From a virus, in IMG/VR virus record IMGVR_UViG_3300036790_000309, positions 1-34,937 of that record: a stretch of DNA of 34,937 nucleotides. One strand, 5' to 3'. The notes under the pieces are model-generated. The model did no database searches. It had not been told where the DNA came from and worked only from the letters and a program-made list of their open reading frames with translations. A program made the position numbers and the translations under genes. Of the stretch, positions 1,782-23,033 are shown one piece after another (positions within the stretch are counted from its first letter, which is position 1; every line of letters begins with the position of its first letter).

Positions 1782-2130
1782 TAGCAGATAGCAGCAGTTG
1801 ACAGCAGTCACTGTATGCAGAACAGAAAAATATTTTTGCTCGAAAAGTGACACGTTGCGAGCTGTTTTCTGAAATCTCTTCCAACTCTTCTGCTTTGAAA
1901 GAGATGCAAGAGAAACAGAAATCGCGTAGCTGTCACAGTTCTCAGGAACAGTGTAGGGCGCCAAAGTTTACGTAGTGATGCCGCTGATAAGTCGGATTTC
2001 TGAGAACGCACAGCGCGGGCTACGCAAACTTTTGATGGCAATTCTTTGACAATTTTTCTACTTGGAATTCACGCTCACTTTTGTGAGCACAACGTGCTGA
2101 GGATATTGGGGCAGCAAAGGAGAGAAGGCA
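1782..2130 (+). promoter_or_regulatory. Early-region leader with repeated motifs and a hairpin
   Basis: This 349-bp stretch has no convincing gene. It holds TTGACA at 2046-2051 without a good -10 at 17 bp, and a perfect inverted repeat GCTCAC-TTTT-GTGAGC at 2073-2088. Three short sequences recur around the next gene. TGACACGTTGC occurs at 1848 and 2390. GCTACGCAAACT occurs at 2019 and 2329. GATTTCTGA occurs at 1995 and within TCAGATTTCTGA at 2381-2392. Repeats before and after an HTH-like gene suggest operators for autoregulation. Confidence 0.4.
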
Positions 2131-3945: not shown

Positions 3946-3973
3946 CGTCACAGAAATAGGGGGAGTCAACATC
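3945..3973 (+). promoter_or_regulatory. Shared leader motif, short copy
   Basis: GCGTCACAG, then AAATAGGGGGAGTC and the ATG at 3974. This looks like a shortened copy of the leader that precedes 9094, 10876, 18256 and 22104: the CGTaACAG block and the ATAGtGGGGAG block are present with the spacer deleted. The GGGGAG serves as ribosome binding site. Confidence 0.45.
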
Positions 3974-5530: not shown

Positions 5531-5611
5531 AGGCGTAGAAGTAGGCAGAGCGATATTTAGAATCAGATATTGGTAGACCTCATCCATATCTCACAGCTAT
5601 AGTGATACACA

Positions 5612-6286: not shown

Positions 6287-6296
6287 ATTGGATATG

Positions 6297-7611: not shown

Positions 7612-7620
7612 CTCCTGATT

Positions 7621-7641
7621 GGATTATTGAGCCACTAGTTG
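7621..7641 (+). promoter_or_regulatory. TTGAGCC element 2 (capsid), degenerate
   Basis: GGATTATTGAGCCACTAGTTG lies in the 114-bp gap between the small terminase and the capsid gene. It shares TTATTGAGCC with the copies at 11276 and 16385 but lacks the CTATA part. Confidence 0.4.
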
Positions 7642-7725
7642 AGGCTGCTTCCGATGAAGGGGCTCGCCTGACTGAATTCGTGTCCGCTGATCCGAAAACA
7701 GGGGCGCACAAGGAAAACAAATATC

Positions 7726-8982: not shown

Positions 8983-9012
8983 CAGGTAACTCTCCTGCCT
9001 GTTGTCACAAGA

Positions 9013-9047
9013 GCCTCAAGCAAACCTGCTTGGGGCTTTTGCTCTTT
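9013..9047 (+). terminator. Rho-independent terminator after the capsid gene
   Basis: GCCTCAAGC (9013-9021) pairs with GCTTGGGGC (9028-9036) with one G-U pair around a six-base loop, followed by TTTTGCTCTTT. An AACAGG/CCTGTT inverted repeat lies just upstream. Confidence 0.85.
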
Positions 9048-9054
9048 GTAAGGG

Positions 9055-9093
9055 GCGTAACAGGTTTCAGGAACAGTAGGGAGAGTTACTTGA
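9055..9093 (+). promoter_or_regulatory. Shared leader motif (large terminase)
   Basis: GCGTAACAGG, a spacer, then ACAGTAGGGAGAG and the ATG at 9094. It belongs to the family with copies before 10876, 18256 and 22104, whose consensus is CGTAACAGG, about 10-12 bases, then ATAGTGGGGAGA. The GGGAGA end is the ribosome binding site. It follows the capsid terminator directly, so it may also contain the promoter. Confidence 0.6.
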
Positions 9094-10827
9094 ATGTTTC
9101 AGTTTGAACAGGACATCGAAGACATTGCTTCTGGAAAGATCATTGTCGGCCCGTGGATACGCAAAGCAATAGAACGGCATAAGCGCGACTTAGAGCATGC
9201 GCATGAGCGCGGCTTCTACTTTGATCCAGAAGAAGGACAGCGCGTCATTGACTTTATAGAGATGTTCTGCATTCCACCTGAGTCTGATGACTTGATGGTT
9301 TGCATGTGGTGGCAGCGCGTCATGCTGGGCATCACTTATGGCTGGCGACGCATTGCAGACCATACTCGGCGCTTCCGCCGTGTCTATCTTGAGATCGCCA
9401 AGAAAAATGGAAAAACCGCGCTGGCCGCGGCTCTAGTTCCGTTCCACCTTATTGCCGATGGTGAACAATCGGCGCGTGTGTTCATAGCCGCCACTACGGC
9501 CAAGCAAGCTGATACTTGCTTCAAGCAGGCCGCAGCGCTCTGCGCTCGCAGTCCAGAACTCAGGAGCGTAATTCATCAGGCAGGTAATGATCCGCACATC
9601 CTTGCCCTCTTCACCGATGACTTAGGCCGCGCCAGCAAGATGTCGCGTGAGGCCGGCTCAGAAGATGGCGCAATGGTTAGCTGCTCCATCTTAGATGAGC
9701 TTCACCGCTGGAAGAGTGGCTCTGGTCTTTACAGCATTCTCCGCTACGGTGGCCGTACCAAAAAGCAGCCGCTGATGATTGAAACAACCACCGCTGGTGC
9801 CTCTGCGGATGGAACTTCCCTTTGTTGGTTTGAGCGTGAGTACGGCACAAAGATTCTGGATGAGCACGTTGTTGATGATGAGTTCGCACCGTTCATCTTT
9901 TGCATGGCGGACAAAGACAACTGGAAAGACCCATCAAACTGGGTGAAGTCTAATCCGTCGCTAGGTGTTCTGTTCACCGAAGAACAACTTCTCAAAGAAT
10001 TCACTGAAGCTATTGGAAAGCCTACCTCACTTTCCGAGTTCAAGCGCTTTGCGCTGAACATTTGGTCCTCTGAGTCAGCGGACCCCGCGATCGAAATCGA
10101 GAAGTGGGATGCGTGTTGTGTTGAAGACATTGCTACGCATCCAGACCCCAAGCGCTTGAGGAAAGAAATGCTTGAACGCCTAAAGGGAAGGTTGTGTTTC
10201 GGTGGCATTGACTTGGCACCGAAGTTGGATACTTCGTCTTTAGTGTTGCTGTTTCCGCCGCTAACCTCCGCCGAGAAATGGTGCGCGCTTGAGTATTTTT
10301 GGTGCCCCGCTGACAACATCGCTGATCGCGTAAAACGTGATCGCGTTCCGTATGACGTGTGGCGCGATGACGGCTTTATCGTTCCGACCCCAGGCAATCT
10401 CACCGATGTTCGCTACATCGCAGACCAGATTGCCGACATAAATAAGCAATTCGACCTGAAAGAGGTTGCATACGACGACGCGTGGAGTTCAGAACTCATC
10501 CGCATGCTGGGCGAAGCAAAGTTTCCGATGGAGAAGTTCGTTCCGTTTCCGCAGTCACATCTCCGAATGAACCCGCCGTGTCAGGAATTGATGCGGAAAG
10601 TTCTCCGCCTAGAGTTTTCCCACACCCGCAACCCAGTAATGCGTTGGCAGATGAGCAACCTGCGCTGGAACACTCAATCCGGGACGAACTTCGTTAAGCC
10701 GTCGCGTGATCGAAAGCGAGAAAAGATAGACGGTCCCGCCTCACTCATCATGGCGCTTGCACGCGCTACCGCGCCCGAGAACCAAGTCAAAACTAAGAAA
10801 CCATTTTGGGTAGTCACTTCAGCCTAA
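9094..10827 (+). CDS. terL: Terminase large subunit
   Basis: The product (577 aa) is the packaging motor and genome-cutting enzyme. The ATPase half has a Walker A-type AKKNGKT at 102-108 and Walker B with catalytic acid ILDELH at 199-204. The nuclease half starts near residue 365 with FGGIDLAPKLDTSS (D373 as metal ligand) and continues with EVAYDDAWSSELI and DGPASLIMALA near the end. This is the layout of the Terminase_1 / HK97-like family, which mostly works with cos ends. It stands alone between the capsid terminator and a repeated leader. Confidence 0.95.
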   Translation: MFQFEQDIEDIASGKIIVGPWIRKAIERHKRDLEHAHERGFYFDPEEGQRVIDFIEMFCIPPESDDLMVCMWWQRVMLGITYGWRRIADHTRRFRRVYLEIAKKNGKTALAAALVPFHLIADGEQSARVFIAATTAKQADTCFKQAAALCARSPELRSVIHQAGNDPHILALFTDDLGRASKMSREAGSEDGAMVSCSILDELHRWKSGSGLYSILRYGGRTKKQPLMIETTTAGASADGTSLCWFEREYGTKILDEHVVDDEFAPFIFCMADKDNWKDPSNWVKSNPSLGVLFTEEQLLKEFTEAIGKPTSLSEFKRFALNIWSSESADPAIEIEKWDACCVEDIATHPDPKRLRKEMLERLKGRLCFGGIDLAPKLDTSSLVLLFPPLTSAEKWCALEYFWCPADNIADRVKRDRVPYDVWRDDGFIVPTPGNLTDVRYIADQIADINKQFDLKEVAYDDAWSSELIRMLGEAKFPMEKFVPFPQSHLRMNPPCQELMRKVLRLEFSHTRNPVMRWQMSNLRWNTQSGTNFVKPSRDRKREKIDGPASLIMALARATAPENQVKTKKPFWVVTSA

Positions 10828-10835
10828 GAACAGAG

Positions 10836-10875
10836 GTCGTAACAGGTCCCCAGAGATAGTGGGGAGACATTAGCC
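10836..10875 (+). promoter_or_regulatory. Shared leader motif (HTH gene before portal)
   Basis: GTCGTAACAGG, then CCAGAGATAGTGGGGAGAC, then the ATG at 10876. This copy shares TCGTAACAGG and CAGAGATAGTG exactly with the one at 22053. It can also form a small CCCC/GGGG hairpin that would cover the ribosome binding site. Confidence 0.65.
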
Positions 10876-11370
10876 ATGAGCAGAGCACGCAAAGTAGAGC
10901 ACAAAGCAGTTGAACAATACGCCCAGCAGCATCCTGAAGCAATCCAAACAGACATTGGGCGGTTGTTCGGTATCACGCAGGGGTCTGTAGGTCGGATTCT
11001 GCGTCGGGCTTCATTGACTAACACACATCGCGGAGTCCGCCGCAAAACAACGAAGCCGCCAAAAGGTACGCGGTTTGACCGCTTCGGAAGAGTATGCCCA
11101 GTGCAATCGCCAGACGTTCAGTATTTCTTCTGGGATCAATACCTGCAACAGCTAGGGTTCGGAGTATCGCGGGGTGAAAAGCTCGGGCGGCAACGCATTC
11201 TCTATGGCTACGACCCGCTCCAGCAAGCATTGCAGGATGAGAGCGCCACGCTGTTAGAAGAGGACGAGCCCGAAGGGGTTATTGAGCCACTTACTAGGGA
11301 GCATTCCATTGAACGCTACCTGCCTACAACGGTATCCGCGTCCGCTGATGACGGAGACACATGTCGTTAA
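10876..11370 (+). CDS. Helix-turn-helix protein between terminase and portal
   Basis: The product is 164 aa. Residues 12-46 (VEQYAQQHPEAIQTDIGRLF followed by GITQGSVGRILRR) form a clear helix-turn-helix. A basic linker follows (KTTKPPKGTRFDR), then an unrecognised domain (FFWDQYLQQLGFGVSRGEKL) and an acidic tail. It could regulate late genes or bind packaging DNA next to the terminase. The repeated leader precedes it. The stop lies inside the first codons of the portal gene (10-bp overlap), so the two are co-expressed. No family name can be given. Confidence 0.7.
   Translation: MSRARKVEHKAVEQYAQQHPEAIQTDIGRLFGITQGSVGRILRRASLTNTHRGVRRKTTKPPKGTRFDRFGRVCPVQSPDVQYFFWDQYLQQLGFGVSRGEKLGRQRILYGYDPLQQALQDESATLLEEDEPEGVIEPLTREHSIERYLPTTVSASADDGDTCR
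11276..11299 (+). promoter_or_regulatory. TTGAGCC element 3 (portal), degenerate, inside a gene
   Basis: GGTTATTGAGCCACTTACTA shares TTATTGAGCCACT with element 2. It lies in the 3' end of the HTH gene, about 85 bp before the portal start, where it encodes VIEPLT. Because it is coding here, the match could also reflect chance or a coding constraint. Confidence 0.3.
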
Positions 11371-12995
11371 TCTCGCTGAATCTAAATACCCCGCCATTTC
11401 ATACCTTCCAGAATAGTGGCGCGTCTACTATGGCAGCGCCCAGCGCCGATCTGGTGCAGTCCCTTCTCGGATTTCCGGCGGCTGCTGGCAAGCCTGTAAC
11501 TCGGGCAACAGCTATCCGCGTTGCCGCAGTTCTCTCGTCAGTCAAAGTGCTGGCAAATGACATCGCAAAGATGCCGCTGATTCTGCACGAAACCAAAGAC
11601 GTAGATGGGCACCAGCGACGGCAGCATGCCCTCAAGGATCCGCTCTATTCACTTTTGAAAGACATCCCAAACCGCTGGCAGACGAGCTATCAACTCCGCT
11701 GGTTTCTCGCGTCGCAGTTGATTATGAAAGGCGCTTGCTACTGTCAGAAGATCACCGATCAAAAGGGCGATGTCGTTGAACTCGTCCCACTGAACGCTTG
11801 GGGCATGGACATCAAGTGGGATTACAGCGGCGGTCCTAATCCGCAGCGTGACTTCCGAACTGGCAAAGCGGTGCCCGTCCTGTGCTGGCACTACATGGAC
11901 GGTCATTCAGTCGTTCAAAAGTTCTATCAAGATGACCTCTGGCACGTTACGTCACACAACATCGAAGGCATCGGCGTTGAAGGCGCCTCGATGATTGCGC
12001 TCGGCAAAGAAGCTATCAGTGTTCTGATCGCGGCAGAAGAGACGGCTGGGCGTCAGTTCGCTAACGGACTCGGCATGGGTGGGTTCATATCCTTTCCTGT
12101 TGATGGAGGACCGGACGAATCACAAGCGCAAAACGTCGTGGATCGTCTGAAGAAAGACTTCTCAGGTTCTCAGAATGCAGGAAAGTTCACGATTATTCCC
12201 CACGGCGGCAAGTGGGAAAAGATGACCTTCAACGCGCAAGAGTCGCAACTGCTTGAGTCACGCAAGTGGAATGAGGAAACGGTAGCGCGGATGTTTGGCG
12301 GCGCGCCGCTGGTAGTGAAGCTCGGGCTGGGAGCGCAGAACAGCACTTATGCATCCAGTTCCGCATTCCTCGGCGAGTATTTTCACACGTCACTCCTGCC
12401 TTACACGACTGCGATTGAGCAGTCGATTACGCGGGACCTGATTCAGAAAGAAGATCGCGGCACTAAGTACGCAAAGCATTTTGCGGATGTCATCCTGTAC
12501 GGCTCGCCGGATGACCGCGCCAAGACGAATGCTTCCCTCATTGCCTCTGGGCAGATGACGCTCAATGAAGCCCGTTCCACCGAAGATCGCGACTGGATAG
12601 AAGGCGGCGATGTTCTAGTTCTGGCTGCCAACTCTTGTTTGTTTGATCCAGCAACCCAGTCTTGGTTCATCCCAGGTCAGAAAGTTCCTGTAGATGCGCC
12701 AGATGGTGCTGCGGTTCCGAATGCGGCAGAAGAAGACGAGCCGGATGCTGACGGTGATGACGCACCAGATGCAAAGTCCGCAAAAGTGACAGCGCGGCTG
12801 GCAGCCATTGCGAATTCATTAGCTGAAAGATGTGAACGAAAGTTTGCAAAGTCTGGCGCTCTTGAACCGAAGTTCGTGGCTGAAGTGATGAGCGTTCCCC
12901 TAGAGGAAGCCCAAAGAGTTTGCAGCACCGTGTATTCCAACAAAGATGAAATGCGAGCTGCGCTTGTCGCTCTCGCCACAGGTGAAACGAAATGA
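11361..12995 (+). CDS. Portal protein, HK97 family
   Basis: The product (544 aa) forms the dodecameric ring at the DNA entry vertex. The Phage_portal domain spans about 40-420: IRVAAVLSSVKVLANDIAKM, LYSLLKDIPNRWQTSYQLRW and LESRKWNEETVARMFGGAPL are the typical blocks. Residues 450-475 are very acidic (EEDEPDADGDDAPDA), followed by a helical C-terminal extension. GGAG lies five bases before the ATG at 11361, which overlaps the preceding gene by 10 bp. The stop overlaps the protease start as ATGA. Confidence 0.95.
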   Translation: MSLISLNLNTPPFHTFQNSGASTMAAPSADLVQSLLGFPAAAGKPVTRATAIRVAAVLSSVKVLANDIAKMPLILHETKDVDGHQRRQHALKDPLYSLLKDIPNRWQTSYQLRWFLASQLIMKGACYCQKITDQKGDVVELVPLNAWGMDIKWDYSGGPNPQRDFRTGKAVPVLCWHYMDGHSVVQKFYQDDLWHVTSHNIEGIGVEGASMIALGKEAISVLIAAEETAGRQFANGLGMGGFISFPVDGGPDESQAQNVVDRLKKDFSGSQNAGKFTIIPHGGKWEKMTFNAQESQLLESRKWNEETVARMFGGAPLVVKLGLGAQNSTYASSSAFLGEYFHTSLLPYTTAIEQSITRDLIQKEDRGTKYAKHFADVILYGSPDDRAKTNASLIASGQMTLNEARSTEDRDWIEGGDVLVLAANSCLFDPATQSWFIPGQKVPVDAPDGAAVPNAAEEDEPDADGDDAPDAKSAKVTARLAAIANSLAERCERKFAKSGALEPKFVAEVMSVPLEEAQRVCSTVYSNKDEMRAALVALATGETK

Positions 12996-13960
12996 ACAAA
13001 AAAGTAAATTCCAAAGATCCACGTCGTTTTTTCAACGCCGCTCAAGCAGAGAGCGTGCTGACGCTCGAAGTCTATGACGTGATCGGCGCCGACTTTTTCG
13101 GCGACGGTATCACGGCGTCGGCAGTATCAGACGCGATTGCTCAGGCGGGCACCCACGACAGCATTTCGCTGCGGATCAACAGTCCGGGCGGAGATGCCTT
13201 TGAGGGGGTGGCCATATATAACGTTTTGAAGAACAACGCCAAGCCTGTAAACGTCTACGTTGACGGCCTCGCCGCGTCTGCTGCCAGCATTGTTGCTATG
13301 GCTGGTGACACGATCTGCATGGGAACTGGCGCAATGATGATGATTCACCCCGCCCAAGGGTGCGCAATGGGTGACGCCAAAGCGGTGCGAGAGTTTGCAG
13401 ACACGCTCGATCAGGTCAGCGCATCTATCGCCGACATTTACGTCGAGCGCACCAAGAACAGCAAAAAGTCTGTCACGGACATGATGAACGCTGAAACTTG
13501 GATGTCTGCAAAGGAAGCGGTCAAGAACGGCTTCGCAACTTCAGTTGCTGACACCTCAAAAATGGTCAGCAATGCCTTCGACCTCAGCCAGTTCAAGAAT
13601 GTTCCGGTTGAGTTGAAGAATCAGGCAAAAACTAAAGAGGTTGACGGTGAGCACCTCACCGCCGGTGACTTCGTTTACGTCGGTAACGCGGACGACACCA
13701 GCACTTGGTCTCTCCCCTGGCATTTCTCGTCTGATGAAAAAACGAAGAGCCATCTGCGCGATGCGCTGGCTCGCTTCGATCAGGATGAGGTTATCCCTGC
13801 CTCGCACAAAGATGAGGCGTATGCGAAGCTGCTCCGCCTCTGTGGAGAGTATGGGATTGAAGTATCGCAGCGCGGCAAGGCGAAGAACGAAGCGCCCAGT
13901 TTTGATGCTGCCGCTCATGATATTCGCATGAAGCAGATTCAGATCGCGAGACGCAAATAA
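12992..13960 (+). CDS. ClpP-type prohead protease fused to an extra C-terminal domain
   Basis: The product is 322 aa. Residues 20-190 are a ClpP/S14 serine peptidase: SPGGDAFEGVAIYNVL, the nucleophile Ser96 in GLAASAAS, His119 in MMIHPAQG, and an acidic residue near 168 in AETWMSAKEAVKNGFA. It should process the capsid scaffold region during prohead maturation. Residues 219-292 form a second module, LTAGDFVYVGNADDTSTWSL followed by HLRDALARFDQDEVIPASHK and LRLCGEYGIEV. This resembles the small 'DDpSTWkLP...H...AlaRf...p' domain (DUF6582-like) found in other phage structural proteins. Fusion of the two is uncommon in my experience. Starts and stops overlap both neighbours. Confidence 0.9.
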   Translation: MNKKVNSKDPRRFFNAAQAESVLTLEVYDVIGADFFGDGITASAVSDAIAQAGTHDSISLRINSPGGDAFEGVAIYNVLKNNAKPVNVYVDGLAASAASIVAMAGDTICMGTGAMMMIHPAQGCAMGDAKAVREFADTLDQVSASIADIYVERTKNSKKSVTDMMNAETWMSAKEAVKNGFATSVADTSKMVSNAFDLSQFKNVPVELKNQAKTKEVDGEHLTAGDFVYVGNADDTSTWSLPWHFSSDEKTKSHLRDALARFDQDEVIPASHKDEAYAKLLRLCGEYGIEVSQRGKAKNEAPSFDAAAHDIRMKQIQIARRK

Positions 13961-14970
13961 TGTACCAGAAGACGATCACTTACGCAGAGAATCCCGTCAT
14001 CACGCCTTCACGCCTCGCGGCGTTTGGGCGCTTCGATGTTCCGCAGGAGTACATCACTGGAAGCTCTCCGGCTATGCAGACGGATGACTATACCCTCTTG
14101 GAAGTATTCATCGAAGCTGCGACAGAGCAAGTCGAGATCATGGCGCAGACAGCCTGCCAGACGGAGCAGGTGCTGCTTACGTTGGACTTTTTCCCCAATA
14201 CGCAAGACCCCCGGAACTTCTTGCAATACGAATTGACCTATGCCTTCGCTATCACTCCTTGGTGGTTTTGGGGTTTCCCGACTAAAGATTCTATCGAGCT
14301 TGTCCGCCGCCCGGTACAGGTTCCGAAGCTGACTGGTACCGCAGCCAACATCACGGCTGTTTCCGTTGCTGGCAACATCGTGACTGTAACTTGCGAGAAT
14401 GATTTCGAGGAAGGGAATGTTGTAGTCATCGCGGGTACGGCTGAAGGCAACATCTACAACCCAACGACTACGCCAAGCACGATACCGTTTTTGAATGGCG
14501 CTCCGCTGACCGTGCTGACGGCAAGCGCCACTCAGTTTACTGCTGCTTTCAATTTCTACAATCTTGAAAACGGCAGCCAGATAATTCCACAGACGTACTC
14601 GAACAATGCTGACACAGGAACTGCACAAGTGTGGTCGAATCCCTGCCTCATCACCTATTACGACCAAAACGGCATCTTGCAGACTTGGAACACGACGAAT
14701 TATTCCGTCATGTACGACAAAATCTGTTTGGCAGTGGGCAACTGGTGGCCGCTGACTGATCGCAGACAGGATTGCATCCAGATTTCATATTGGGCGGGCA
14801 ACTCTTCGACGCCTTCTGACACAGATGCACGGTTGCAAATGGCTGTGATGTATCTGGCTGCGCATATGTGGGAAAACCGCTCACTTGTTGCTGTTGAACC
14901 GACTAGCGAAGTCTTCCATACGCTTTGCTTGATGCTCTCGGCATTTCGTACTTTTAGGGTACCACGATGA
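13960..14970 (+). CDS. Head-tail connector (phiE125 gp8-like) with an inserted beta domain
   Basis: The product is 336 aa. The outer parts match the gp6/phiE125 gp8 connector pattern: DDYTLLEVFIEAATEQVEIM, LTLDFFP, IELVRRPVQ, then LITYYDQNGILQTWNTTNYS, WWPLTDRRQDCIQISYWAG and DARLQMAVMYLAAHMWENRS. Between RRPVQ and LITYYD about 100 residues are inserted (roughly 125-228), starting TAANITAVSVAGNIVTVTC and rich in Thr, Val, Asn and Ala. This looks like a beta-sandwich or Ig-like decoration. The family is normally 180-220 aa, so the insertion explains the extra length. Confidence 0.8.
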   Translation: MYQKTITYAENPVITPSRLAAFGRFDVPQEYITGSSPAMQTDDYTLLEVFIEAATEQVEIMAQTACQTEQVLLTLDFFPNTQDPRNFLQYELTYAFAITPWWFWGFPTKDSIELVRRPVQVPKLTGTAANITAVSVAGNIVTVTCENDFEEGNVVVIAGTAEGNIYNPTTTPSTIPFLNGAPLTVLTASATQFTAAFNFYNLENGSQIIPQTYSNNADTGTAQVWSNPCLITYYDQNGILQTWNTTNYSVMYDKICLAVGNWWPLTDRRQDCIQISYWAGNSSTPSDTDARLQMAVMYLAAHMWENRSLVAVEPTSEVFHTLCLMLSAFRTFRVPR

Positions 14971-15359
14971 GCTTGCCTAAGCGCATAAGCGATGGCTTCA
15001 AATATTTGCCGAGTTCCGCGTTCAACACATACGTGAACTTCGTCAACCCTAATGCTGGTCAAGCGGCAGATGGAACTCCGAACGCCCCTGTCACTGTTGC
15101 CTGCGGCATCCATGCGAATGTGTCACCGTGGCGCAGCAAAGAAATCGACAAGCAGGATGTGCGTGTTGCGCAATCAAGCTACAAGATTGTGATTCGCTAT
15201 CCCAAGACTTTTAGCCTCGACACTGGAATGCAGGTTCAAATCATTCATGGCAGTAAGGTGCAGACCCACAACATTGATTCTTTCATGGATCCGAATGCAC
15301 AACAGACTGAGCTTCATATTTTCACGTTTGTGACTGCCGATACCGCGGGGTGCATGTGA
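14967..15359 (+). CDS. Head completion / head-tail joining protein
   Basis: The product is 130 aa. Residues 60-125 (HANVSPWRSKEIDKQDVRVA, YKIVIRYPKTFSLDTGMQVQ, then SFMDPNAQQTELHIF) have the beta-rich form of the SPP1 gp16-like head-tail joining proteins that seal the portal ring. It lies where this protein is expected, between the gp6-like connector and the tail terminator. The start overlaps the upstream stop as ATGA. Assignment rests on pattern and synteny. Confidence 0.7.
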   Translation: MSLPKRISDGFKYLPSSAFNTYVNFVNPNAGQAADGTPNAPVTVACGIHANVSPWRSKEIDKQDVRVAQSSYKIVIRYPKTFSLDTGMQVQIIHGSKVQTHNIDSFMDPNAQQTELHIFTFVTADTAGCM

Positions 15360-15772
15360 TCGAACAGGGAGTCTATCAGCTCATCGAAACTGACGCCGAC
15401 ATTGATGCGCTCGTCAATGGTGCGTACTGGGTTCTTGCTCCAAAGGGTGCGGTTGTTCCGTACTTAGTTCTCAGTCGTGTCGCAACAACGGATGTTTACA
15501 CCATGAACGGCGCAACTGGAATGCGCTCTGCGCTGTTTCAGGTTGATTGCTATGCGACCGACTATTACACAAGCCGTTCCATTGCGTTGGCTGTTCGTCA
15601 GTTGCTGGAATCGTACAGGGGCAATCTACCTGATGTGAACTCTACGGCTGTGGCTGCGGTGCTGACCGAAAAAGATTGGGACATGCCTTACGAAGAGGGC
15701 AGCGGCAAAGGCTTTGTGTTTCGCGCTCTGTTGCAATTTCGCGTTTGGTATTACGACCCAGTAACCGCATGA
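15356..15772 (+). CDS. Tail terminator / tail completion protein (DUF3168)
   Basis: The product is 138 aa from GTG 15356, which overlaps the upstream stop as GTGA. An in-frame GTG six bases earlier is also possible. The opening VIEQGVYQLIETDADIDALV and the middle VVPYLVLSRVATTDVYTMNG followed by RSALFQVDCYATDYYTSRSI are typical of DUF3168, the lambda gpU-like protein that ends tail polymerisation and joins head to tail. Confidence 0.8.
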   Translation: MIEQGVYQLIETDADIDALVNGAYWVLAPKGAVVPYLVLSRVATTDVYTMNGATGMRSALFQVDCYATDYYTSRSIALAVRQLLESYRGNLPDVNSTAVAAVLTEKDWDMPYEEGSGKGFVFRALLQFRVWYYDPVTA

Positions 15773-15781
15773 CGGCAGACT

Positions 15782-16009
15782 ATGAAGCTACCTACTTTTG
15801 TTCTCCACATCCTGACGGAACCCGACAACGCGACATTCTGCCCCGTGCGCATCGTGTCGCTTTTGGGCGTCTTGCAGTATCTTGTGATGTCCGGCGCTCA
15901 TTATGTCCAGCATGCAGTGTTCGAGCCACAGGCTTTTGCTGTCGGCTTTGGCGCTCTCATTAGTGGCGTAGGCGTAGCACTCGGTCTGAAGAAAGACACT
16001 CCAAGGTAG
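15782..16009 (+). CDS. Small two-helix membrane protein, holin-like
   Basis: The product is 75 aa. It has two hydrophobic segments, roughly 22-40 (CPVRIVSLLGVLQYLVMSG) and 50-68 (FAVGFGALISGVGVALGL), and a charged C-terminus KKDTPR. The 'LTEPDN..fCPVRi' opening and the 'FG..faal..gvg.al..K' end recur in small phage membrane proteins of unknown role that are often annotated as holin-like. It sits among tail genes, away from the endolysin, so a true holin role is uncertain. No strong ribosome binding site is visible. Confidence 0.65.
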   Translation: MKLPTFVLHILTEPDNATFCPVRIVSLLGVLQYLVMSGAHYVQHAVFEPQAFAVGFGALISGVGVALGLKKDTPR

Positions 16010-16086
16010 CCAAGGCCCCCTCAATAGGTCCCGGCAGACCGTTGGGAATGAACCCGCCGATGCATCCGCTCAGACTGTAATCCAAT
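16010..16086. other. Short intergenic region between convergent genes
   Basis: This is the tail-to-tail gap between the small membrane protein and the minus-strand gene. I see no strong hairpin. Confidence 0.3.
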
Positions 16087-16302
16087 CTAACTCTTCCGCT
16101 TTTTAGCCGCCCATCGCGCCTTTTGAGCAATGCTCATGGCTTTCCGTTGAGCATTCGTCCACTTGTGAGCTTTGCGCTTGAGCGGAGTCGTTGCAGTAGC
16201 GGCTGGAGTGTGGTTTGTCGCGCCCTCATCAAGGAGTGCTACGACCTTCTGGAGCCGGGAGATTTCACCTTTAACGGCTTGGAGAATCTGCTGTGTATTC
16301 AT
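16087..16302 (-). CDS. Small basic protein, minus-strand cargo gene (moron)
   Basis: The product is 71 aa. Its end (TNAQRKAMSIAQKARWAAKK) matches the 'Rr.isaAqkaRWak.k' tail that is frequent in small proteins of Acidobacteriota and their phages. The N-terminus (ILQAVKGEISRLQKVVALLD) is a helix with coiled-coil spacing. The gene is transcribed against the tail operon. A TATACT hexamer lies seven bases before the ATG, so the mRNA would be leaderless. This is typical of independently expressed cargo genes. A DNA-binding role is plausible from the charge; function unknown. Confidence 0.7.
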   Translation of the reverse strand: MNTQQILQAVKGEISRLQKVVALLDEGATNHTPAATATTPLKRKAHKWTNAQRKAMSIAQKARWAAKKRKS

Positions 16303-16309
16303 GCCGGAA

Positions 16310-16315
16310 AGTATA
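16310..16315 (-). promoter_or_regulatory. -10 element for the moron gene at 16302
   Basis: TATACT on the minus strand, seven bases before the start codon; no Shine-Dalgarno sequence lies between. TAGACA lies 20 bases further upstream as a poorly spaced -35. The arrangement predicts a leaderless transcript. Confidence 0.45.
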
Positions 16316-16384
16316 CATTAACGACCCTTCCGATGTGTCTACTCAGCCGAATCCAGACACTCCCAGAACCCGTTTCGCCCAAGT

Positions 16385-16404
16385 GATTATTGAGCCGCTA
16401 TATG
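16385..16404 (+). promoter_or_regulatory. TTGAGCCGCTATATG element 4 (gp10-like gene)
   Basis: GATTATTGAGCCGCTATATG shares GAGCCGCTATA with element 1, TTATTGAGCC with elements 2 and 3, and CCGCTATATG with element 5. It lies about 120 bp before the gp10-like gene in an otherwise empty 222-bp gap, on the far side of the minus-strand cargo gene, where a fresh late promoter would be needed. Confidence 0.55.
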
Positions 16405-16524
16405 TAAGTGAACTCAAGGGCAGAGTAGCGCCTCAAGGCGAAGACGACAACCTACAGTGCTTTCCATCAACCCGTAGTTGATGCGATTCGTCATTCCTTC
16501 CTTTTGTTCACTTCCAGAAGCAAC

Positions 16525-16920
16525 ATGCCCATTGAAATTGAAGGCTTAGCCGATCTTTCGAGACTGTTGACGGAAGAGTCGCCAGCAGCAGCAAAGCGCT
16601 ATCTGTTGCGGTGCGCCACGCCTGCTGCCCAAGTTGTGATAGATGCAGCGCATGAGACCGTCCCTGTGGATGTGGGCGTGTTGGAAGAGTCTATGGGCTC
16701 GCAAACGGAATGGTCGTCTGGTGACGGCGAGACCGCACTGGAAATCAACGTGGGACCTTTGAAATCTGCTTGGTGGGGATCACTACAGGAATTTGGTACG
16801 AGAACTAACCCTGCCCAACATTGGCTTTCGAGAGCTTGGGAATCGTGCAAGGGCAAAGTACTGGACGTGTTCGCAACCGAAGCCGTTGGACTCGTTCAGG
16901 ACTTGGAGAATAAAAGGTGA
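16525..16920 (+). CDS. HK97 gp10-like head-tail / minor tail protein
   Basis: The product is 131 aa from ATG 16525 (an in-frame TTG at 16504 is less likely). Residues 1-60 (IEGLADLSRLLTEESPAAAK, then VVIDAAHETVPVDVGVLEES) and 85-110 (WWGSLQEFGTRTNPAQHWLS) are the signature of the HK97 gp10 family: 'G...L...L', 'ak..vPv.tG.Lr.s', and 'Y..f.EfGT....a.pfl..A'. It helps assemble the connector-tail junction. The stop overlaps the GTG start of the glycosyltransferase. Confidence 0.85.
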   Translation: MPIEIEGLADLSRLLTEESPAAAKRYLLRCATPAAQVVIDAAHETVPVDVGVLEESMGSQTEWSSGDGETALEINVGPLKSAWWGSLQEFGTRTNPAQHWLSRAWESCKGKVLDVFATEAVGLVQDLENKR

Positions 16921-17708
16921 CTGCTTTCCCAAGCGTCAGTGTGTTGCTGCCAAGTGCAAACGGTAGGTTCGCTGGTACCGCTCTCAATTGCTTTCTCGCT
17001 CAGAGCTACAAAGGCGAGATGGAATTGGTGGTCTTAGACAATGCGGATGATGACTGCCTTTTGTTCAGAGTAAGCAAGCTCGTGAAGCCAGACGGTGCTG
17101 AGGTGCTGGATGGATTCACCGGATTCACTGCACTGCTTGCAAACGGGCAGAGAGTGACATACCTGTCCTTGCCGCACCGACCAATCGGCGCTCTTAGGAA
17201 TACGGGCAACTGGCACGCGCGCGGAGACATTATCGTCCACTTTGATGACGATGACTGGCAGCACCCAGACCGCGTAGCAGTTCAAGTCGCAAGGTTGATG
17301 GATACGGGCAAGGCGGTGACGGGGTTCCATTCCTCTCTGTACTGGAATGATGACGCTGGTGGTTTGTATCGCTATCACTACAGCCCTGGCAGACCGCATG
17401 AGCCGTATGCATACGGTGCGAATCTGGCTTACACACGGCAGTGGTGGGAAAAGCATTCATTCCCAGAAACGGACAGCGAAGACCGCCCATTTACGGATGC
17501 GGCTCTGCACCTGAAGCAGCTTGATTCATGCGATGGCGGACAGCTTATTGCATGTCGAGTCCATGGGCAGAATCTGTGCGCGAAACAAAATTATCTCGGA
17601 AAGCATAAGCAGTGGCCGGCAGTTCAGCGCAGCACTTTCCCAACCGAATTCTTCGCCGCCATTGATGCGGAGAAATGCAGTACAAATCAACCGCCCTTGG
17701 CGGCATAA
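16917..17708 (+). CDS. GT2-family glycosyltransferase
   Basis: The product is 263 aa. The N-terminal Rossmann-like block PSVSVLLPSANGRFAGTALN, the RPIGALRNTGNWHARGDIIV stretch and the metal-binding FDDDDWQHPDR (D110-D113, the DXD site) are those of GT-A fold, family 2 enzymes using nucleotide sugars. No membrane segment or signal peptide is present, so it acts in the cytoplasm. Its GTG start overlaps the stop of the gp10-like gene, and the tail tube gene follows within 16 bp. It is therefore expressed with the virion genes, which suggests sugar addition to a tail or capsid protein rather than lysogenic O-antigen change. The target is unknown. Confidence 0.85.
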   Translation: MTAFPSVSVLLPSANGRFAGTALNCFLAQSYKGEMELVVLDNADDDCLLFRVSKLVKPDGAEVLDGFTGFTALLANGQRVTYLSLPHRPIGALRNTGNWHARGDIIVHFDDDDWQHPDRVAVQVARLMDTGKAVTGFHSSLYWNDDAGGLYRYHYSPGRPHEPYAYGANLAYTRQWWEKHSFPETDSEDRPFTDAALHLKQLDSCDGGQLIACRVHGQNLCAKQNYLGKHKQWPAVQRSTFPTEFFAAIDAEKCSTNQPPLAA

Positions 17709-17723
17709 CTAAGGAGTTACACA

Positions 17724-18149
17724 ATGCCTAATCCAGTACAAGGAATTGTCGGTATCGGCGATAGCTTTGAATTCGCCACAGTCGGCTCTCCCTCAACCTA
17801 CACCGTTCTCGATGGCGTGCTGTCTGTCAGCTTCTCCGGCGACAAAGTTGCCACCGAGAAGACCACGCAGATGGGAACGCCCAACGGCGTAGATACGTTC
17901 ATTTCCAGCACGCAAGATCCGGGGACTTGCGATGTCAAATGTCTCTTTGAACCCGGCGACTCTACGCAGGTTGCTTTGGAAGCGATCCGCCTCTCCGGTG
18001 CTGCCGTGAACATGAAGGCGCTCTACGGCTCCTCGAACAGCACCTCATTCACAGGCATCGTTGAGTCTATGACTCGCGCATTCCCGCTGGACAAGCCCGC
18101 CACGCTTGACGTGAAGATCAAGCTCACAGGTCCTTGGACGCTGGCGTAA
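17724..18149 (+). CDS. Major tail tube protein
   Basis: The product is 141 aa. It is rich in Ser, Thr and Gly and beta-strand patterns: VQGIVGIGDSFEFATVGSPS, SVSFSGDKVATEKTTQMGTP, and a C-terminal DVKIKLTGPWTLA. This fits the single-domain lambda gpV-N / HK97-type tube fold. AAGGAG is well spaced before the ATG. A strong hairpin follows the gene, and the tail chaperones lie directly downstream, which is the standard position for the tube subunit. Confidence 0.8.
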   Translation: MPNPVQGIVGIGDSFEFATVGSPSTYTVLDGVLSVSFSGDKVATEKTTQMGTPNGVDTFISSTQDPGTCDVKCLFEPGDSTQVALEAIRLSGAAVNMKALYGSSNSTSFTGIVESMTRAFPLDKPATLDVKIKLTGPWTLA

Positions 18150-18156
18150 TCGGCCT

Positions 18157-18177
18157 GGGGTGGTGAAAGCCCACCCC
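18157..18177 (+). terminator. Hairpin after the tail tube gene
   Basis: GGGGTGG (18157-18163) pairs perfectly with CCACCCC (18171-18177) around TGAAAGC. Only a weak T-rich stretch follows, so it may act as a partial terminator that raises tube expression over downstream genes. Confidence 0.6.
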
Positions 18178-18215
18178 GCCACTTTACTCAGGTGCTCAAA
18201 GCTAAAGCTCGGAGT

Positions 18216-18255
18216 GTGGTTACAGGTTTTCTGACATATAGGGAGAGTTCACAAA
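18216..18255 (+). promoter_or_regulatory. Shared leader motif (tail chaperone)
   Basis: GTGGTTACAGG, a spacer, then CATATAGGGAGAG and the ATG at 18256. The TTTC-spacer and TAGGGAGAGTT end match the copy before the large terminase. It follows a hairpin, as at 9055. Confidence 0.6.
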
Positions 18256-18660
18256 ATGTCAAAGCAAACAGAAATAAAGACGCGGGTTACTCCGCACTTC
18301 ACCCTCATTCTCGACAGCGAGGACGGCGCTCCAGCGCGTACTTGGCGCCTCTGCTACACGTACAAAGCAATCGCTCGGATCGAAGAAGCTACAGGTCTGG
18401 ACCTGAAAAAGGTTGATGACTGGCAGAAGATTTCGTCCGGCAAGGACTTCCCCAAGATCGTGTGGGGTGGTTTGGAGAAATTCAATCCAGAAGTGACGCT
18501 GGATGAAGTAATCGAAGCGCTCAATCCAGAGGCGCAAAGGCTTTTGTCGGATGAGATTTTTGAATTGATGTTCCCCGGCATTGTCGAAGCGCTGAAAAAG
18601 CATCAGGCGGCGGGTGCAACTGCCGACCCAAACTTGCAAACGGCGACTCTGACCGCATAG
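18256..18660 (+). CDS. Tail assembly chaperone (gpG-like)
   Basis: The product is 134 aa. It begins with a beta-rich part (TRVTPHFTLILDSEDG, RTWRLCYTYKAIARIEEATG) followed by helical blocks (IVWGGLEKFNPEVTLDEVIE, SDEIFELMFPGIVEALKKH). This is the pattern of siphovirus tail assembly chaperones that coat the tape measure during tail building. Near its end lies a canonical -1 slippery heptamer, CCCAAAC at 18627-18633, in frame C-CCA-AAC. The overlapping -1 frame stays open into the following reading frame, so a longer G-T fusion is expected from some ribosomes. Confidence 0.8.
   Translation: MSKQTEIKTRVTPHFTLILDSEDGAPARTWRLCYTYKAIARIEEATGLDLKKVDDWQKISSGKDFPKIVWGGLEKFNPEVTLDEVIEALNPEAQRLLSDEIFELMFPGIVEALKKHQAAGATADPNLQTATLTA
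18627..18633 (+). other. Programmed -1 frameshift site CCCAAAC
   Basis: The zero frame reads GAC CCA AAC and slips to CCC AAA, keeping pairing at both sites. The -1 frame is open from 18564 through 19106, with no stop between the slip site and the second frame. A less perfect alternative, G-AAA-AAG, lies at 18594-18600. Confidence 0.7.
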
Positions 18661-19106
18661 AGGAGCCGCCCGACAACTGGTTGGACCTGTGGGCTTTGGC
18701 GCGTTATGACCTCGGCCTTAGCTGGGAAGAGTTCGAGGAACTTACCCCAGCAATGTTTCAGGCGCTGTGCAAGCGCCGTAACGTTCGGATCAAGTATGAG
18801 CGACTAGCCAATGCTCTGACGGCTTCTGTAGTGGCAAATGTGAACCGCAGCAAGGCAGACGATCCGATCATTCAGCCATTTGATTTCATCCGCGACGGTG
18901 AAAGCGCACAGAAGAAAGAGCGGTTGGATGCAGCGAAGCGCCATTGCAAGAAAGTGATGAATGTTCCCTCGGGCACATCGCTGGAAAAGATTATGGAGAT
19001 ACGCGGCAGGGCAATCAAGGACTTAGAAGCCGCCGGGTATCCAGATGCGGAGCAGATTTTCAATAGTTGCTGGCCGCATTTGAAGCCGAAGAAAGAAAAG
19101 CAATGA
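18633..19106 (+). CDS. Tail assembly chaperone extension (gpT-like), made by -1 frameshift
   Basis: This frame lies at -1 to the gpG-like gene. After slippage at CCCAAAC it continues LANGDSDRIEEPPDNWLDLW, then ARYDLGLSWEEFEELTPAMF. The latter is the typical start of the T part, 'a.. .LG.s..ef..LTp.ef.al'. The fusion would be about 283 aa. An independent start is less likely: the first candidate is a TTG at 18681 with AGGAG fifteen bases away. The C-terminal part is helical and basic (KSADDPI, KKERLDAAKRHCKKVM). Confidence 0.75.
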   Translation, partial: LANGDSDRIEEPPDNWLDLWALARYDLGLSWEEFEELTPAMFQALCKRRNVRIKYERLANALTASVVANVNRSKADDPIIQPFDFIRDGESAQKKERLDAAKRHCKKVMNVPSGTSLEKIMEIRGRAIKDLEAAGYPDAEQIFNSCWPHLKPKKEKQ

Positions 19107-19273
19107 CGTGGGATGAACGCATTGAGAAAGTTCAGAAAGTGATTGACCTGTGCATCAAGGCTGATGCGCATGCGTTCGTCTTAATCATCGCTGGCGTCTT
19201 GATGAAATTACACAACATTGAAGACCCCGGCTTAGTGTTGGCTGGGCTAGCCATTTTCAAAGGAAGGTCCTAA
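19103..19273 (+). CDS. Small protein with one hydrophobic segment
   Basis: The 56-aa product starts at ATG 19103, overlapping the preceding stop as ATGA. Residues 21-35 (AHAFVLIIAGVLMKL) and 45-52 are hydrophobic. Its size, coupling to the chaperone and position four bases before the tape measure gene support a real gene. I recognise no family. Confidence 0.6.
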   Translation: MTWDERIEKVQKVIDLCIKADAHAFVLIIAGVLMKLHNIEDPGLVLAGLAIFKGRS

Positions 19274-19276
19274 GCA

Positions 19277-21388
19277 ATGTCCGAAGTCGGCGCATTGATC
19301 GTTAAGCTCAGAGCAGAGACTGCCGAATTCCGCGAGGACATGGGCAAAGTCAAGTCTGAGCTTGACAGCCTGAAAGACAAAACAGGTGAAGTTGGAAGCA
19401 GCATGGATCACAGCATGGGCGAAGCCCGTGGTGGTCTGATGCTTGTTGAAGAGTCCGTCGGTGTCCGCCTGCCCCGCCATCTGAACACCCTCATCGCCAC
19501 GATTCCTGGGGTTGGACAAGCTTTTGCGCTGATGCTGCCTATCGCTGGTGTTGCTGTTGCGATTGAGATTATTTCAAAGCTGATCGAGCACCAGAAGCAG
19601 GTCGCAGAGCAAGCTCAGAAGCTGGGACTGGCTCAAGCCAGCTTTGGTACCGCCGCTCAGGAAGCATTCAACAAACTCGACGACAAATTGCTACAGGCTG
19701 GTATCCACGCTGATGAACTTCGCGGCGATCACTTAGCCGCATTGCAGAAGCAGCTTGTGTTGATCGACCACCAGAGCATGAATGAGCTGGCCGAGCAGTT
19801 CCGCACTCTTGCGGCTGCCGCCGACAAGACGCTGGCTGACATCAGCGAGCATTGGTATGAAAGCAAAATCGGCGTTGTGGGAGTAAAGGATGCGCTGAAC
19901 AATTTTGAATCCCAGTACACCCAACTGCTGGCGAAGCATGATGACAAGGGCGCGGGTGATCTTCTGGCAGGCACTTTGCAGTCTGCCATCAAGATGAAGG
20001 AACTGATGGAAGCGCAGCAAGGCGGGCACGGCTCTACCCAGTCTGACTTGGATGCTCAAAACGCCCTCATCAATTTGTTGCAGACAGAAGTAGACCTTCG
20101 TAAGCAGAATGCCGTTGTCGTGCTGGCGGAAAAGAAAGAAGCCACAGACAAAGCGGTCAAGGAGACCGTCAAGGATGTGACTGATCGCCAGAAAGAACTG
20201 AATGCATCCATCGTCAAGGGCATGGAAAACTACGTCGCCTTTGGTCGCGCACAGCGTGAAGCCTACAAGGGATCGAACAACAGCGAAGCGTTGCATCAGA
20301 CGGAAGACTTCTTCAAGTCTATTGCTGATGCTCAAAAGATAGCCGCTCAAGAAGAACTTCAAACTGCACAGCAGACCTTCTCTAATCAAGCTGAGGTTGC
20401 TAAAGCATCCTTAGAGCAGCAGAAGGGCGCAATCGCTAATGCATCCGAACTCGGGTTGATTAGCCGCCGTGAAGCTGTCCAGCAGGAAATTGCCCTTATA
20501 CAGCATGAGTCCGGCGTTCGGCTGGTTGCTCTGGCTCAGGAAGTTGCTGCCAAGCGACGGGCTGTGCAGGAAGAAATTGATTCCGACAACCGTGCGGCGG
20601 CTAACGTCCTTGGTGCGAACAACGGCGATAAGTCAGACCCGAAGTACATCGCTTTTCTGAATGATGCTGCGAATAAGATGGCGCAGTTAGACGCCATAAC
20701 CAACAAATACAACGCTGACGTGAAGGTTGCGACCACGACCGCCGCAACGCAGGTCGCTGGGCTGAACACGCAGCTTGCAAAGCTCTACCCAACGTGGCAG
20801 CAGTTCTTCAAAGAGATGAACAAGGATGTTTCCACTCTTGCTCAGAGCATCCACGGCAGCCTGCAATCTAGCGTGACGAAGTTCAATGAGAGCTTCTCGC
20901 AGGGCATAGCAAAAAGCATCGTTGAAGCGAAGAGCCTGTCTTCCGCATTGAAGCAGATCGGCAGGGAAATTGTTGAGGATGCCATCGCCAATTTTATTCG
21001 CTGGAAGTTGATGAATGCTGAAAAAGCTGGTGCGGCCGAGTTCTCCAATGCACTGGCTGAGGGAACTCCGCTACCAATAGCCGTCGCGGAAGGCGCGGGT
21101 GCTTTTGCTAAAGCTCTTGCCTTTGAGCAAGGCGGAACGATCCCAGGCGCTGGCGCTGTTCCCATCATCGGTCACGGTGGGGAAACAGTAGTCACCAAAG
21201 CATTGACGGACAGGGTGAATGCGGCTGAGGGGCGCGGTGGTAGCGCTAGCGGCGTTCACATGCACAACACCTTCGCTCCGCAGATTCATGCTGTTGATGC
21301 AGAGGGCGTGGACAGGCTGCTGGTTAAGCACGCGAGCACATTTCAGCGCCACATGGTCTCTGCCGCCAGAAAGATGAACAAGAGGTAA
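19277..21388 (+). CDS. Tail tape measure protein
   Basis: The 703-aa product sets tail length. The start SEVGALIVKLRAETAEFRED is the usual tape measure N-terminus. Residues 68-105 (LNTLIATIPGVGQAFALMLP and beyond) are a hydrophobic segment expected to enter the host membrane. Most of the rest is long coiled coil (KLIEHQKQVAEQAQ, ASLEQQKGAIANASEL). Near the end AFEQGGTIPGAGAVPIIGHG is the common 'GG.vpG' block. At roughly 1.5 angstrom per residue the tail would be near 100 nm. It follows the frameshifted chaperones, as is standard. Confidence 0.9.
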   Translation: MSEVGALIVKLRAETAEFREDMGKVKSELDSLKDKTGEVGSSMDHSMGEARGGLMLVEESVGVRLPRHLNTLIATIPGVGQAFALMLPIAGVAVAIEIISKLIEHQKQVAEQAQKLGLAQASFGTAAQEAFNKLDDKLLQAGIHADELRGDHLAALQKQLVLIDHQSMNELAEQFRTLAAAADKTLADISEHWYESKIGVVGVKDALNNFESQYTQLLAKHDDKGAGDLLAGTLQSAIKMKELMEAQQGGHGSTQSDLDAQNALINLLQTEVDLRKQNAVVVLAEKKEATDKAVKETVKDVTDRQKELNASIVKGMENYVAFGRAQREAYKGSNNSEALHQTEDFFKSIADAQKIAAQEELQTAQQTFSNQAEVAKASLEQQKGAIANASELGLISRREAVQQEIALIQHESGVRLVALAQEVAAKRRAVQEEIDSDNRAAANVLGANNGDKSDPKYIAFLNDAANKMAQLDAITNKYNADVKVATTTAATQVAGLNTQLAKLYPTWQQFFKEMNKDVSTLAQSIHGSLQSSVTKFNESFSQGIAKSIVEAKSLSSALKQIGREIVEDAIANFIRWKLMNAEKAGAAEFSNALAEGTPLPIAVAEGAGAFAKALAFEQGGTIPGAGAVPIIGHGGETVVTKALTDRVNAAEGRGGSASGVHMHNTFAPQIHAVDAEGVDRLLVKHASTFQRHMVSAARKMNKR

Positions 21389-21390
21389 TC

Positions 21391-22053
21391 ATGTCTTACA
21401 CCATCATGCCGACGATGCCGCTGTCTATGGCAAAGGGTCTGAAAAAGTCTCCGGCATTCAATACGGCATTTCAAAAGGTAGCGGCTGGGCGTGGGAACGC
21501 CTCTGTATCGCTGACTCCCTACGCGCTGTGGGACATGGAATTTGACCTAGACAGCATCACTGGCAATGAAGCTATTGCTTCATCCACCGTCGCAGCATTC
21601 ATGGGAACCATGATGGCATGTCAGGGTCGCAACCAACTATTCCTGTTCACAGATCCACAAGACAACAGTGTTTCGTATGCGAACTCTGGGATGTTGAATG
21701 TCACGAACGGTGCGGCTGCTCCGATGGGGACGACGGGTGACGGAGTCTCAACGCAGTTCCAGCTTGCCCGCTCTATCGGTGGTGTCGCGTGGGACATTAT
21801 TCAGAATCTGAACGGTAGTGCGACCGTCAAGGTCAACGGCTCTGTCGTGACTGCTGTCTCAATTTCCAGCACTGGCGTTGCAACGTTCACTTCGGCGCCC
21901 GCTAATGGCGCAACCATACAGTGGACTGGAAGCTTTTATTTTCTCTGCCGCTTCTCTGAGGACACGATTGATGCAACCCGTTCTTACACCATAAATTCTG
22001 GCACGGACCAGTGGGATTTCACGAGTATAAAGTTCCAAAGTGAATTTGTGTAG
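21391..22053 (+). CDS. Distal tail protein, DUF2460 family
   Basis: The product is 220 aa. The ending FYFLCRFSEDTIDATRSYTI followed by DQWDFTSIKFQSEFV and the middle VNGSVVTAVSISSTGVATFT, with GATIQWTGSFYF, are the hallmarks of DUF2460 (TIGR02217-type). This tail-tip component precedes the DUF2163 hub and NlpC/P60 gene in many siphoviruses and gene transfer agents. The order here is the same. Residues 95-130 are a Gly/Ala/Thr-rich linker. Confidence 0.85.
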   Translation: MSYTIMPTMPLSMAKGLKKSPAFNTAFQKVAAGRGNASVSLTPYALWDMEFDLDSITGNEAIASSTVAAFMGTMMACQGRNQLFLFTDPQDNSVSYANSGMLNVTNGAAAPMGTTGDGVSTQFQLARSIGGVAWDIIQNLNGSATVKVNGSVVTAVSISSTGVATFTSAPANGATIQWTGSFYFLCRFSEDTIDATRSYTINSGTDQWDFTSIKFQSEFV

Positions 22054-22103
22054 TCGTAACAGGAATTCAGAGATAGTGAGAGGATACTCCGATTAAGAGA
22101 CTC
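22053..22103 (+). promoter_or_regulatory. Shared leader motif (DUF2163 gene)
   Basis: GTCGTAACAGG, a spacer, then CAGAGATAGTGAGAGG. It matches the copy at 10836 at TCGTAACAGG and CAGAGATAGTG. The ATG at 22104 is about 20 bases farther away than in other copies, so the element here cannot act only as a ribosome binding site. This favours a transcriptional or RNA-level role. Confidence 0.6.
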
Positions 22104-23033
22104 ATGTCCAGCACGCTGGTTGCTTGGTTAGCCGCCAACAAGAACTGCCTCAAGGCGGATCTTTTTCAGATCACGCTCCCCACTGGCACTGTCTTTTATG
22201 CAACCGAAGGCCAATGGAAAATTACGGTTCCGAGCGGCACCCCCGGCTGGAGCGGATCGACCACAACATTTGAAGCAAACAAGTATGGGCGTTGGCAGCG
22301 CGGCGTCATCACGAGTGAGGCTGGTTTCGATCTGAAAGCGAACACTATGGACCTCATCTGCGTGCCGCAAAGCACAACCACGTATCCGGGCTTGTCATCT
22401 ACAGGTATATTGGCGGCTGCTGCAAGCGGGCTATTCGATGCCGCATCACTCACTGTTTATACGGCTTACTTCGCGGCAGGGCACTACGGCACAATCCCCG
22501 CTGGCGGCATCGAAACAAAGTTTCAGGGAACCATCACGTCGGTAAAAGCGCTCAACCGCCTCAAAGTTGAATTCGAGTGTGGCGATCCGCTGTATCTGGC
22601 GAACCAGAAAGTTCCCAACCGGACGTTTCAGCCAAGCTGTCCGTGGAGCTTCTGCGATTCTAACTGCACGCTCAGCGCCAGCAACTACACGGTGGCTTTC
22701 ACAGCAGCTAGTGGAAGCACGCAGTACGTTCTTGTTCCGACCAGTGCGTTCTCGCAGGCGGCTGGCTACTTTACTCAAGGTGTTGTCACTTGCACAGCTG
22801 GTGCAAATGCTGGACTCAGCCAGACTGTGAAGCTGCATGCTTCTGGTGATCTTGTGACGATGAATCCTTGGATGCTCCCAGTCAGTGCGGGAGATACCTT
22901 CAGCGTCATCGAAGGCTGCGACAAAACGATGACAGCGTGCGCCGGTCGTGTGCAAGCAAACGGAACAGCAGTGAACAATTTGCTGAATTTTGGCGGAACG
23001 CCGTTCACTCCGCCCTCAGCGACTTCACTCTAA
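22104..23033 (+). CDS. Baseplate hub protein, DUF2163 family
   Basis: The product is 309 aa. FQITLPTGTVFYATEGQWKI, EANKYGRWQRGVITSEAGFD and a cysteine-rich centre, FQPSCPWSFCDSNCTLSASN, match DUF2163 (TIGR02218-type) proteins. In gene transfer agents and related siphoviruses this forms the hub between the distal tail ring and the tip megatron. The conserved cysteines, also at EGCDKTMTACAGR, may bind metal. It is followed directly by the peptidase gene. Confidence 0.85.
   Translation: MSSTLVAWLAANKNCLKADLFQITLPTGTVFYATEGQWKITVPSGTPGWSGSTTTFEANKYGRWQRGVITSEAGFDLKANTMDLICVPQSTTTYPGLSSTGILAAAASGLFDAASLTVYTAYFAAGHYGTIPAGGIETKFQGTITSVKALNRLKVEFECGDPLYLANQKVPNRTFQPSCPWSFCDSNCTLSASNYTVAFTAASGSTQYVLVPTSAFSQAAGYFTQGVVTCTAGANAGLSQTVKLHASGDLVTMNPWMLPVSAGDTFSVIEGCDKTMTACAGRVQANGTAVNNLLNFGGTPFTPPSATSL

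Follow-up and report, generated by a model that had tools for sequence, protein, structure and literature searches.

We analysed a window of 34,937 nucleotides (the whole of the DNA considered here, positions 1 to 34,937 of IMG/VR virus record IMGVR_UViG_3300036790_000309), in which a leader of about 38 bases recurs ahead of several genes. The copies of this leader and the genes and signals next to them are as follows.

1931..1961, + strand: decayed leader copy (TGTCACAGTTCTCAGGAACAGTGTAGGGCG) with a broken open reading frame behind it
3946..3973, + strand: shortened leader copy, CGTCACAG followed directly by AAATAGGGGGAG
7726..8982, + strand: major capsid (head) protein gene (PHROG 10, E 9e-46)
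8980..9004, + strand: stem-loop over the major capsid stop codon, with a 9-bp stem and the 7-base loop ACTCTCC (8989-8995)
9008..9041, + strand: intrinsic terminator between the major capsid gene and terL
9056..9093, + strand: leader copy before terL, with the SD sequence GGGAGAG within the copy
9094..10827, + strand: terminase large subunit gene, terL (PHROG 9, E 8e-131)
10838..10875, + strand: leader copy before the HTH gene, in which a 6-bp hairpin TCCCCA[GAGATAG]TGGGGA is possible
10876..11370, + strand: gene for a small HTH protein, seen solely in the five phages that bear the leader
18218..18255, + strand: leader copy before the 18256-18660 gene
18256..18660, + strand: gene behind the third full copy, called a tail chaperone in the preliminary description of this DNA and without a family match
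22055..22091, + strand: leader copy before the DUF2163/tail assembly gene
22104..23033, + strand: tail assembly protein gene, DUF2163-like (PHROG 778, E 7e-36)

A tRNA-Glu (CTC) gene at 131-205 (−) directly adjoins the integrase gene at 208-1380 (−), and because of this adjacency we read the phage as temperate, with tRNA-Glu (CTC) as its probable site of integration; the same tRNA is also present in one relative (G001). Three neighbouring HNH-endonuclease-like reading frames or fragments lie at 5123-6935 (+) and are akin to the HNH-like gene found behind the leader in another relative (G003). An N6/N4 DNA methylase gene occupies 32384-33322 (−). The order terS, major capsid, terL (7171-9094) is unusual, and a strong terminator separates capsid from terL. 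The reading frame at 7171-7611 matched PHROG 83 (E 5e-14) and, judged by this match, is probably the true terS. The preliminary description had treated the leader-bearing genes as unrelated to one another, which they are, and had placed a truncated terS behind the shortened copy; the frame there, 3974-4372, gave a weak, partial match to the family that 7171-7611 matches better.

The leader is a real repeat. All four full copies described earlier, and the shortened one, were recovered, each within one or two bases of its reported position. The earlier claim of shared sequence blocks holds for their repetition and less so for their uniformity, since the second block is looser. The blocks of the 18218 copy are GGTTACAGG...CTGACATATAGGGAGAG and the 9056 copy reads CAGGAACAGTAGGGAGAG, while the full CAGAGATAGTGGGGAGA occurs only at 10838, with a form carrying three mismatches at 22069. 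The 3946 copy has about 11 bases absent from its middle. At the site that matches window position 1931, G003 has both the leader copy and the open reading frame intact.

The larger distance to the ATG at 22053 had been taken as a sign that the element does more than bind ribosomes. This argument fails because an upstream start codon was lost there. In two relatives (G003 and G004), the orthologues of the 22104 gene start ATGAARAGACTCATG, where the window has ATTAAGAGACTCATG; their start, ATGAARAGACTC, lies four codons earlier than the window ATG at 22104. The ancestral start codon is now ATT in the window, at 22092-22094, 12 bases upstream of 22104, and the ancestral spacing was normal.

A search of IMG/VR with the terL protein yielded 37 loci, four of which are leader-bearing relatives: G001 (locus L002, 91% terL identity), G002 (L003, 87%), G003 (L004, 85%), and G004 (L010, 62%). 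Copies in these contigs were located by position matrix and orthology. In total, we identified 21 copies across five related phages (the window and the four IMG/VR contigs), all in the coding direction; given that the five phages are relatives of one another, the copies do not count as independent, and most of the contigs are incomplete. Additional IMG/VR scans with the HTH, capsid, DUF2163, and major tail proteins added more distant contigs, and the leader was not found in ∼45 more distant relatives.

In the five clade phages, the pattern of block A (the 8-base block that opens the leader), GGAG, and [AG]TG had 14 matches on the + strand and none on the − strand; each of the 14 was in the coding direction and was followed by a start codon. 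Order-2 Markov shuffles produced 5 matches in 5.27 Mb (∼0.1 expected for the clade), and relatives outside the clade had 1 in 686 kb of strand sequence. As the preliminary description had proposed, we built a position matrix from the window copies and scanned the related phages with it. For the matrix of the four full window copies, the top match was a true gene-start copy in each of the other four phages (4/4); below it, weaker copies were intermixed with chance matches. The first pattern scan of IMG/VR returned one chance match and the second returned none, and none of the leader-model matches read in other relatives (best E, 0.1 to 0.3) was at a gene start. Rfam had no family at the leader or at the capsid untranslated region (UTR). 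A crude pairwise test, weak even for the window, found no other repeated leaders in relatives. In L024 (IMG/VR contig 3300047539_000162), the upstream stretch GGCACCGGCCCCGCAAC is common to two putative gene starts and is possibly another repeated leader or a coding repeat.

The consensus of the leader is YGTMACAG-N6/7-G-NN-A-YAR-t-n-GGGAG(AG). The 6 to 7 bases after block A are pyrimidine-rich and mostly end in A; after GNNAYAR come about two bases, the SD sequence GGGAG(AG), and ∼5 to 10 bases to an ATG or GTG. Block A lies 36.4 bases from the start codon (sd, 2.3) and 23.5 bases from the SD core (sd, 1.2); in these figures the DUF2163 start was set a few bases early for the window and for G004, which leaves the picture unchanged. 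The element begins 0 to 10 bases past the upstream stop codon behind terL, DUF2460, and other genes, and hardly any conservation is seen in the 40 bases that precede block A. Information content is high at block A, G16 (present in 19/21 copies), and A19 (18/21), the latter two being loop positions and all of them lying outside the SD sequence. Thus, conservation does extend beyond a ribosome binding site, as was first proposed, and in the related phages it is not confined to the GGGAG core. The 3' end region of 16S rRNA contains GUCGUAACAAGG and CCGUCACACC. Both variants of block A, as in the window copies at 9056 and 10838 among others, are similar to these, which may be coincidence.

The genes behind the leader across the five phages comprise terL, the HTH gene, the 18256 gene, the DUF2163 gene, a terS-like fragment, two small genes, and endonucleases. 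Endonuclease genes sit directly behind the leader in all four relatives (GIY-YIG type, by inspection, in G001, G002, and G004; HNH-like in G003). In such cases at the capsid/terL or DUF2163 site, the start of the displaced gene falls at the end of the endonuclease gene or inside that end, and in sister phages the leader stands directly before terL or the DUF2163 gene. The leader is a portable module, because in relatives homing-endonuclease genes sit behind it, displacing terL or DUF2163.

The HTH orthologue is preceded by the leader in 5/5 phages. A check against sigma factor families gave only sub-threshold HTH matches for the protein, and only a three-helix domain of its predicted structure was confident. 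Its matches to PDB structures were generic and weak, and no sequence relative was found in the PDB. Because its gene carries the leader in every leader-bearing phage and was found only there, the HTH protein is, by association, a candidate for the factor that reads the leader.

A small leader hairpin that hides the SD sequence is plausible but unproven, with modest support from covariation. In the register with a 7-base loop anchored on the conserved G, arm covariation gave a permutation P of 0.004 (4 pairs) and a P of 0.007 to 0.017 when shuffled within phage, from tests that tried several registers and lengths on related copies. The covariation score was equalled by 11 of 500 shuffles. Slid registers gave no signal (P of 0.26 to 0.93), and the energy-based permutation in which arms were swapped between copies was not significant (P of 0.2 to 0.33). 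Paired cells made up 79% of the arms versus 75.2% after shuffling, and each of the two loop-closing pairs was broken in 6/20 copies.

The second RNA structure lies after the capsid gene. A stem-loop of 9 to 12 bp stands there, before the terminator, in 5/5 phages, and it was not present in the capsid/terL gap of ∼15 relatives. Its loop, (A or C)CTCTCC with the anti-SD core CUCUCC, and the closing TA/TG are invariant, and there are four different stems with compensatory changes. In the window, the loop at 8989-8995 is complementary to the SD sequence of the terL leader. The leader that comes next after the stem-loop has GGAGAG in 5/5 phages versus 6/16 for the other leaders (P = 0.023), and the duplex energy of the stem-loop was −23.5 kcal/mol with the leader in cis versus −17.6 kcal/mol with other leaders of the same genome. 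The cis pairing ranked 4 of 120 assignments, with ties since two of the hairpins are identical. On a joint transcript, the SD sequence was predicted to be hidden nearly completely in the window and G003, and slightly or not at all by the capsid UTR in G001, G002, and G004. Pairing of the UTR loop in trans with all leaders was mostly within the range of random sites and at best weak, and by eye no matched changes were seen between the base after GGAGAG and the first base of the UTR loop (A or C). This capsid stem-loop, with an anti-SD loop complementary to the leader of the next gene, is new.

We favor, at a probability of roughly 0.5, the reading of the repeat as a portable 5' leader that acts at the RNA level and sets the translation of genes with their own intergenic gap. 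An RNA-level leader would explain the orientation and spacing of the repeat, why the SD sequence is part of it, and how inserted genes can come to use it. Downstream of block A, the RNA would fold back onto the SD sequence in a small hairpin whose 7-base loop is GNNAYAR, leaving the SD partly hidden. Before terL, or before an endonuclease in the place of terL, the anti-SD stem-loop at the capsid stop may in addition pair with the leader on read-through transcripts. From here on we infer mechanistic steps that go beyond sequence anatomy: block A and the loop could be the tag by which an RNA-binding factor of phage or host origin, or the ribosome itself, recognizes the leader and opens or locks its SD, and the anti-SD loop might be covered by a ribosome that completes the capsid gene, so that terL translation would be coupled to capsid translation. 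It is doubtful, if conceivable, that all of this amounts to a post-transcriptional regulon, in which a single RNA-binding factor would act on the late genes and endonucleases that the SD-hiding leader marks, and the stem-loop at the capsid stop would pair with the next leader, possibly with others in trans, to couple terminase synthesis to capsid translation.

The least improbable alternative, itself unlikely, is that the repeat serves as a promoter, either phage-specific or phage-modified, whose transcripts would carry only a very short leader; block A and the middle block would then be contacts, and GGGAG would double as start site and SD. In its favor, copies occupy the narrow space that separates a strong terminator from terL, a place where renewed transcription would be of use; NAYAGT, the middle block, looks like a weak −10, the 3' end of the 18218 copy is TATAGGGAGA, as in T7 class promoters, and the extended start-associated sequence of the Cluster K phage Adephagia has been reinterpreted as holding a SigA-like promoter (PMC11373665). 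However, the promoter suggested earlier gains no support from a sigma-70 scan, which found no match at the three copies it covered (window 1-19900), and no −35 or other signal is conserved upstream of block A. The end of conservation at block A leaves little space for an ordinary promoter from which the SD would be transcribed as well; were the −10 in the middle block, the SD would fall upstream of the transcription start. Nor is there a terminator ahead of the HTH, DUF2163, and terS copies. A promoter for a T7-like single-subunit polymerase was considered and rejected: the spacing from block A to the SD varies by 4 to 5 bases, and no open reading frame of polymerase size is left unassigned in the window.

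We consider it improbable that the repeat is a DNA operator through which a phage DNA-binding protein, such as the HTH protein, co-ordinates late genes. The TGTNACA at its 5' end is a short palindrome, and the restriction of the HTH gene to leader-bearing phages, always behind a copy, fits such a role, but its one orientation and its nearly constant spacing from the SD and the start codon do not, the SD region is half of the element, and the arms conserve complementarity rather than sequence. Just as improbable is a strong ribosome binding site spread by duplication with no regulatory role. Nearly every copy ends in an SD, and ahead of the 18256 orthologue two relatives carry AAGGAGAG but no block A; against this, the most conserved positions fall outside the SD, the upstream flanks show no shared ancestry, and the DUF2163 copy of G003 keeps block A while its SD has decayed. 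That the repeat is the mark of a homing-endonuclease insertion, left after endonuclease loss, is very improbable: four copies do precede GIY-YIG or HNH-like genes at places where sister phages have no endonuclease, but the HTH, terS-like, and 18256 copies lack one in any phage seen, and the HTH copy is retained in all five.

Among known systems, hairpins that sequester the ribosome binding site have been described for T4 soc, e, I-TevI, and segB and for Aeh1 mobE (reviewed in PMC2988022). The RNA-level leader would resemble these in that the SD can be hidden on read-through transcripts, including ahead of homing-endonuclease genes. As to SD pairing of the T4 type, arm covariation gave a P of 0.004 to 0.03 in one register and the energy test a P of 0.2 to 0.33. 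The T4 and Aeh1 cases concern single genes, each with its own hairpin and a late promoter inside, whereas here a repeated short leader is combined with a separate anti-SD stem-loop in the 3' UTR of the upstream gene, and no promoter was identified.

The closer comparison is with the start-associated sequences (SAS) of Cluster K mycobacteriophages, and the likeness drawn in the preliminary description is borne out in position and use. The Cluster K SAS has a 13-bp consensus, GGGATAGGAGCCC, with at most two deviations (PMC3203893), and is accompanied by an extended SAS (ESAS) (PMC3203893, PMC11373665); SAS/ESAS-like motifs also occur in Microbacterium Cluster EF phages (PMC7302621). Like the SAS, the leader is present in multiple copies in nearly one orientation, lies at the ribosome binding site a few bases from the start codon of several unrelated genes, is conserved beyond the SD, is absent from most other phages, and has a second conserved part upstream. 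Unlike the SAS, its consensus is YGTMACAG...GGGAGAG, and it precedes terL, tail and other late genes, and endonucleases, whereas the Cluster K SAS is restricted to non-structural genes and their half of the genome (PMC3203893, PMC11373665). The ESAS is a 17-bp imperfect inverted repeat upstream of the SAS, with SigA-like −35 and −10 hexamers 17 to 18 bp apart (PMC3203893, PMC11373665); the upstream part of the leader is instead one 8-base block without such a repeat, beyond which the upstream sequence is nearly unconserved, and no promoter-like match was found at the copies within window 1-19900. The leader is thus best read as analogous to the Cluster K SAS, although its sequence and the set of genes it precedes place it outside that family. 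What start-associated sequences do has been an open question since 2011, and the leader adds a further, separate case, distinct in sequence and with late genes as its targets. The endonuclease genes that have taken over the leader are natural replacements, and the anti-SD stem-loop with its compensatory changes is a concrete, testable partner; together they make the question of translation versus promoter directly testable with reporter constructs.
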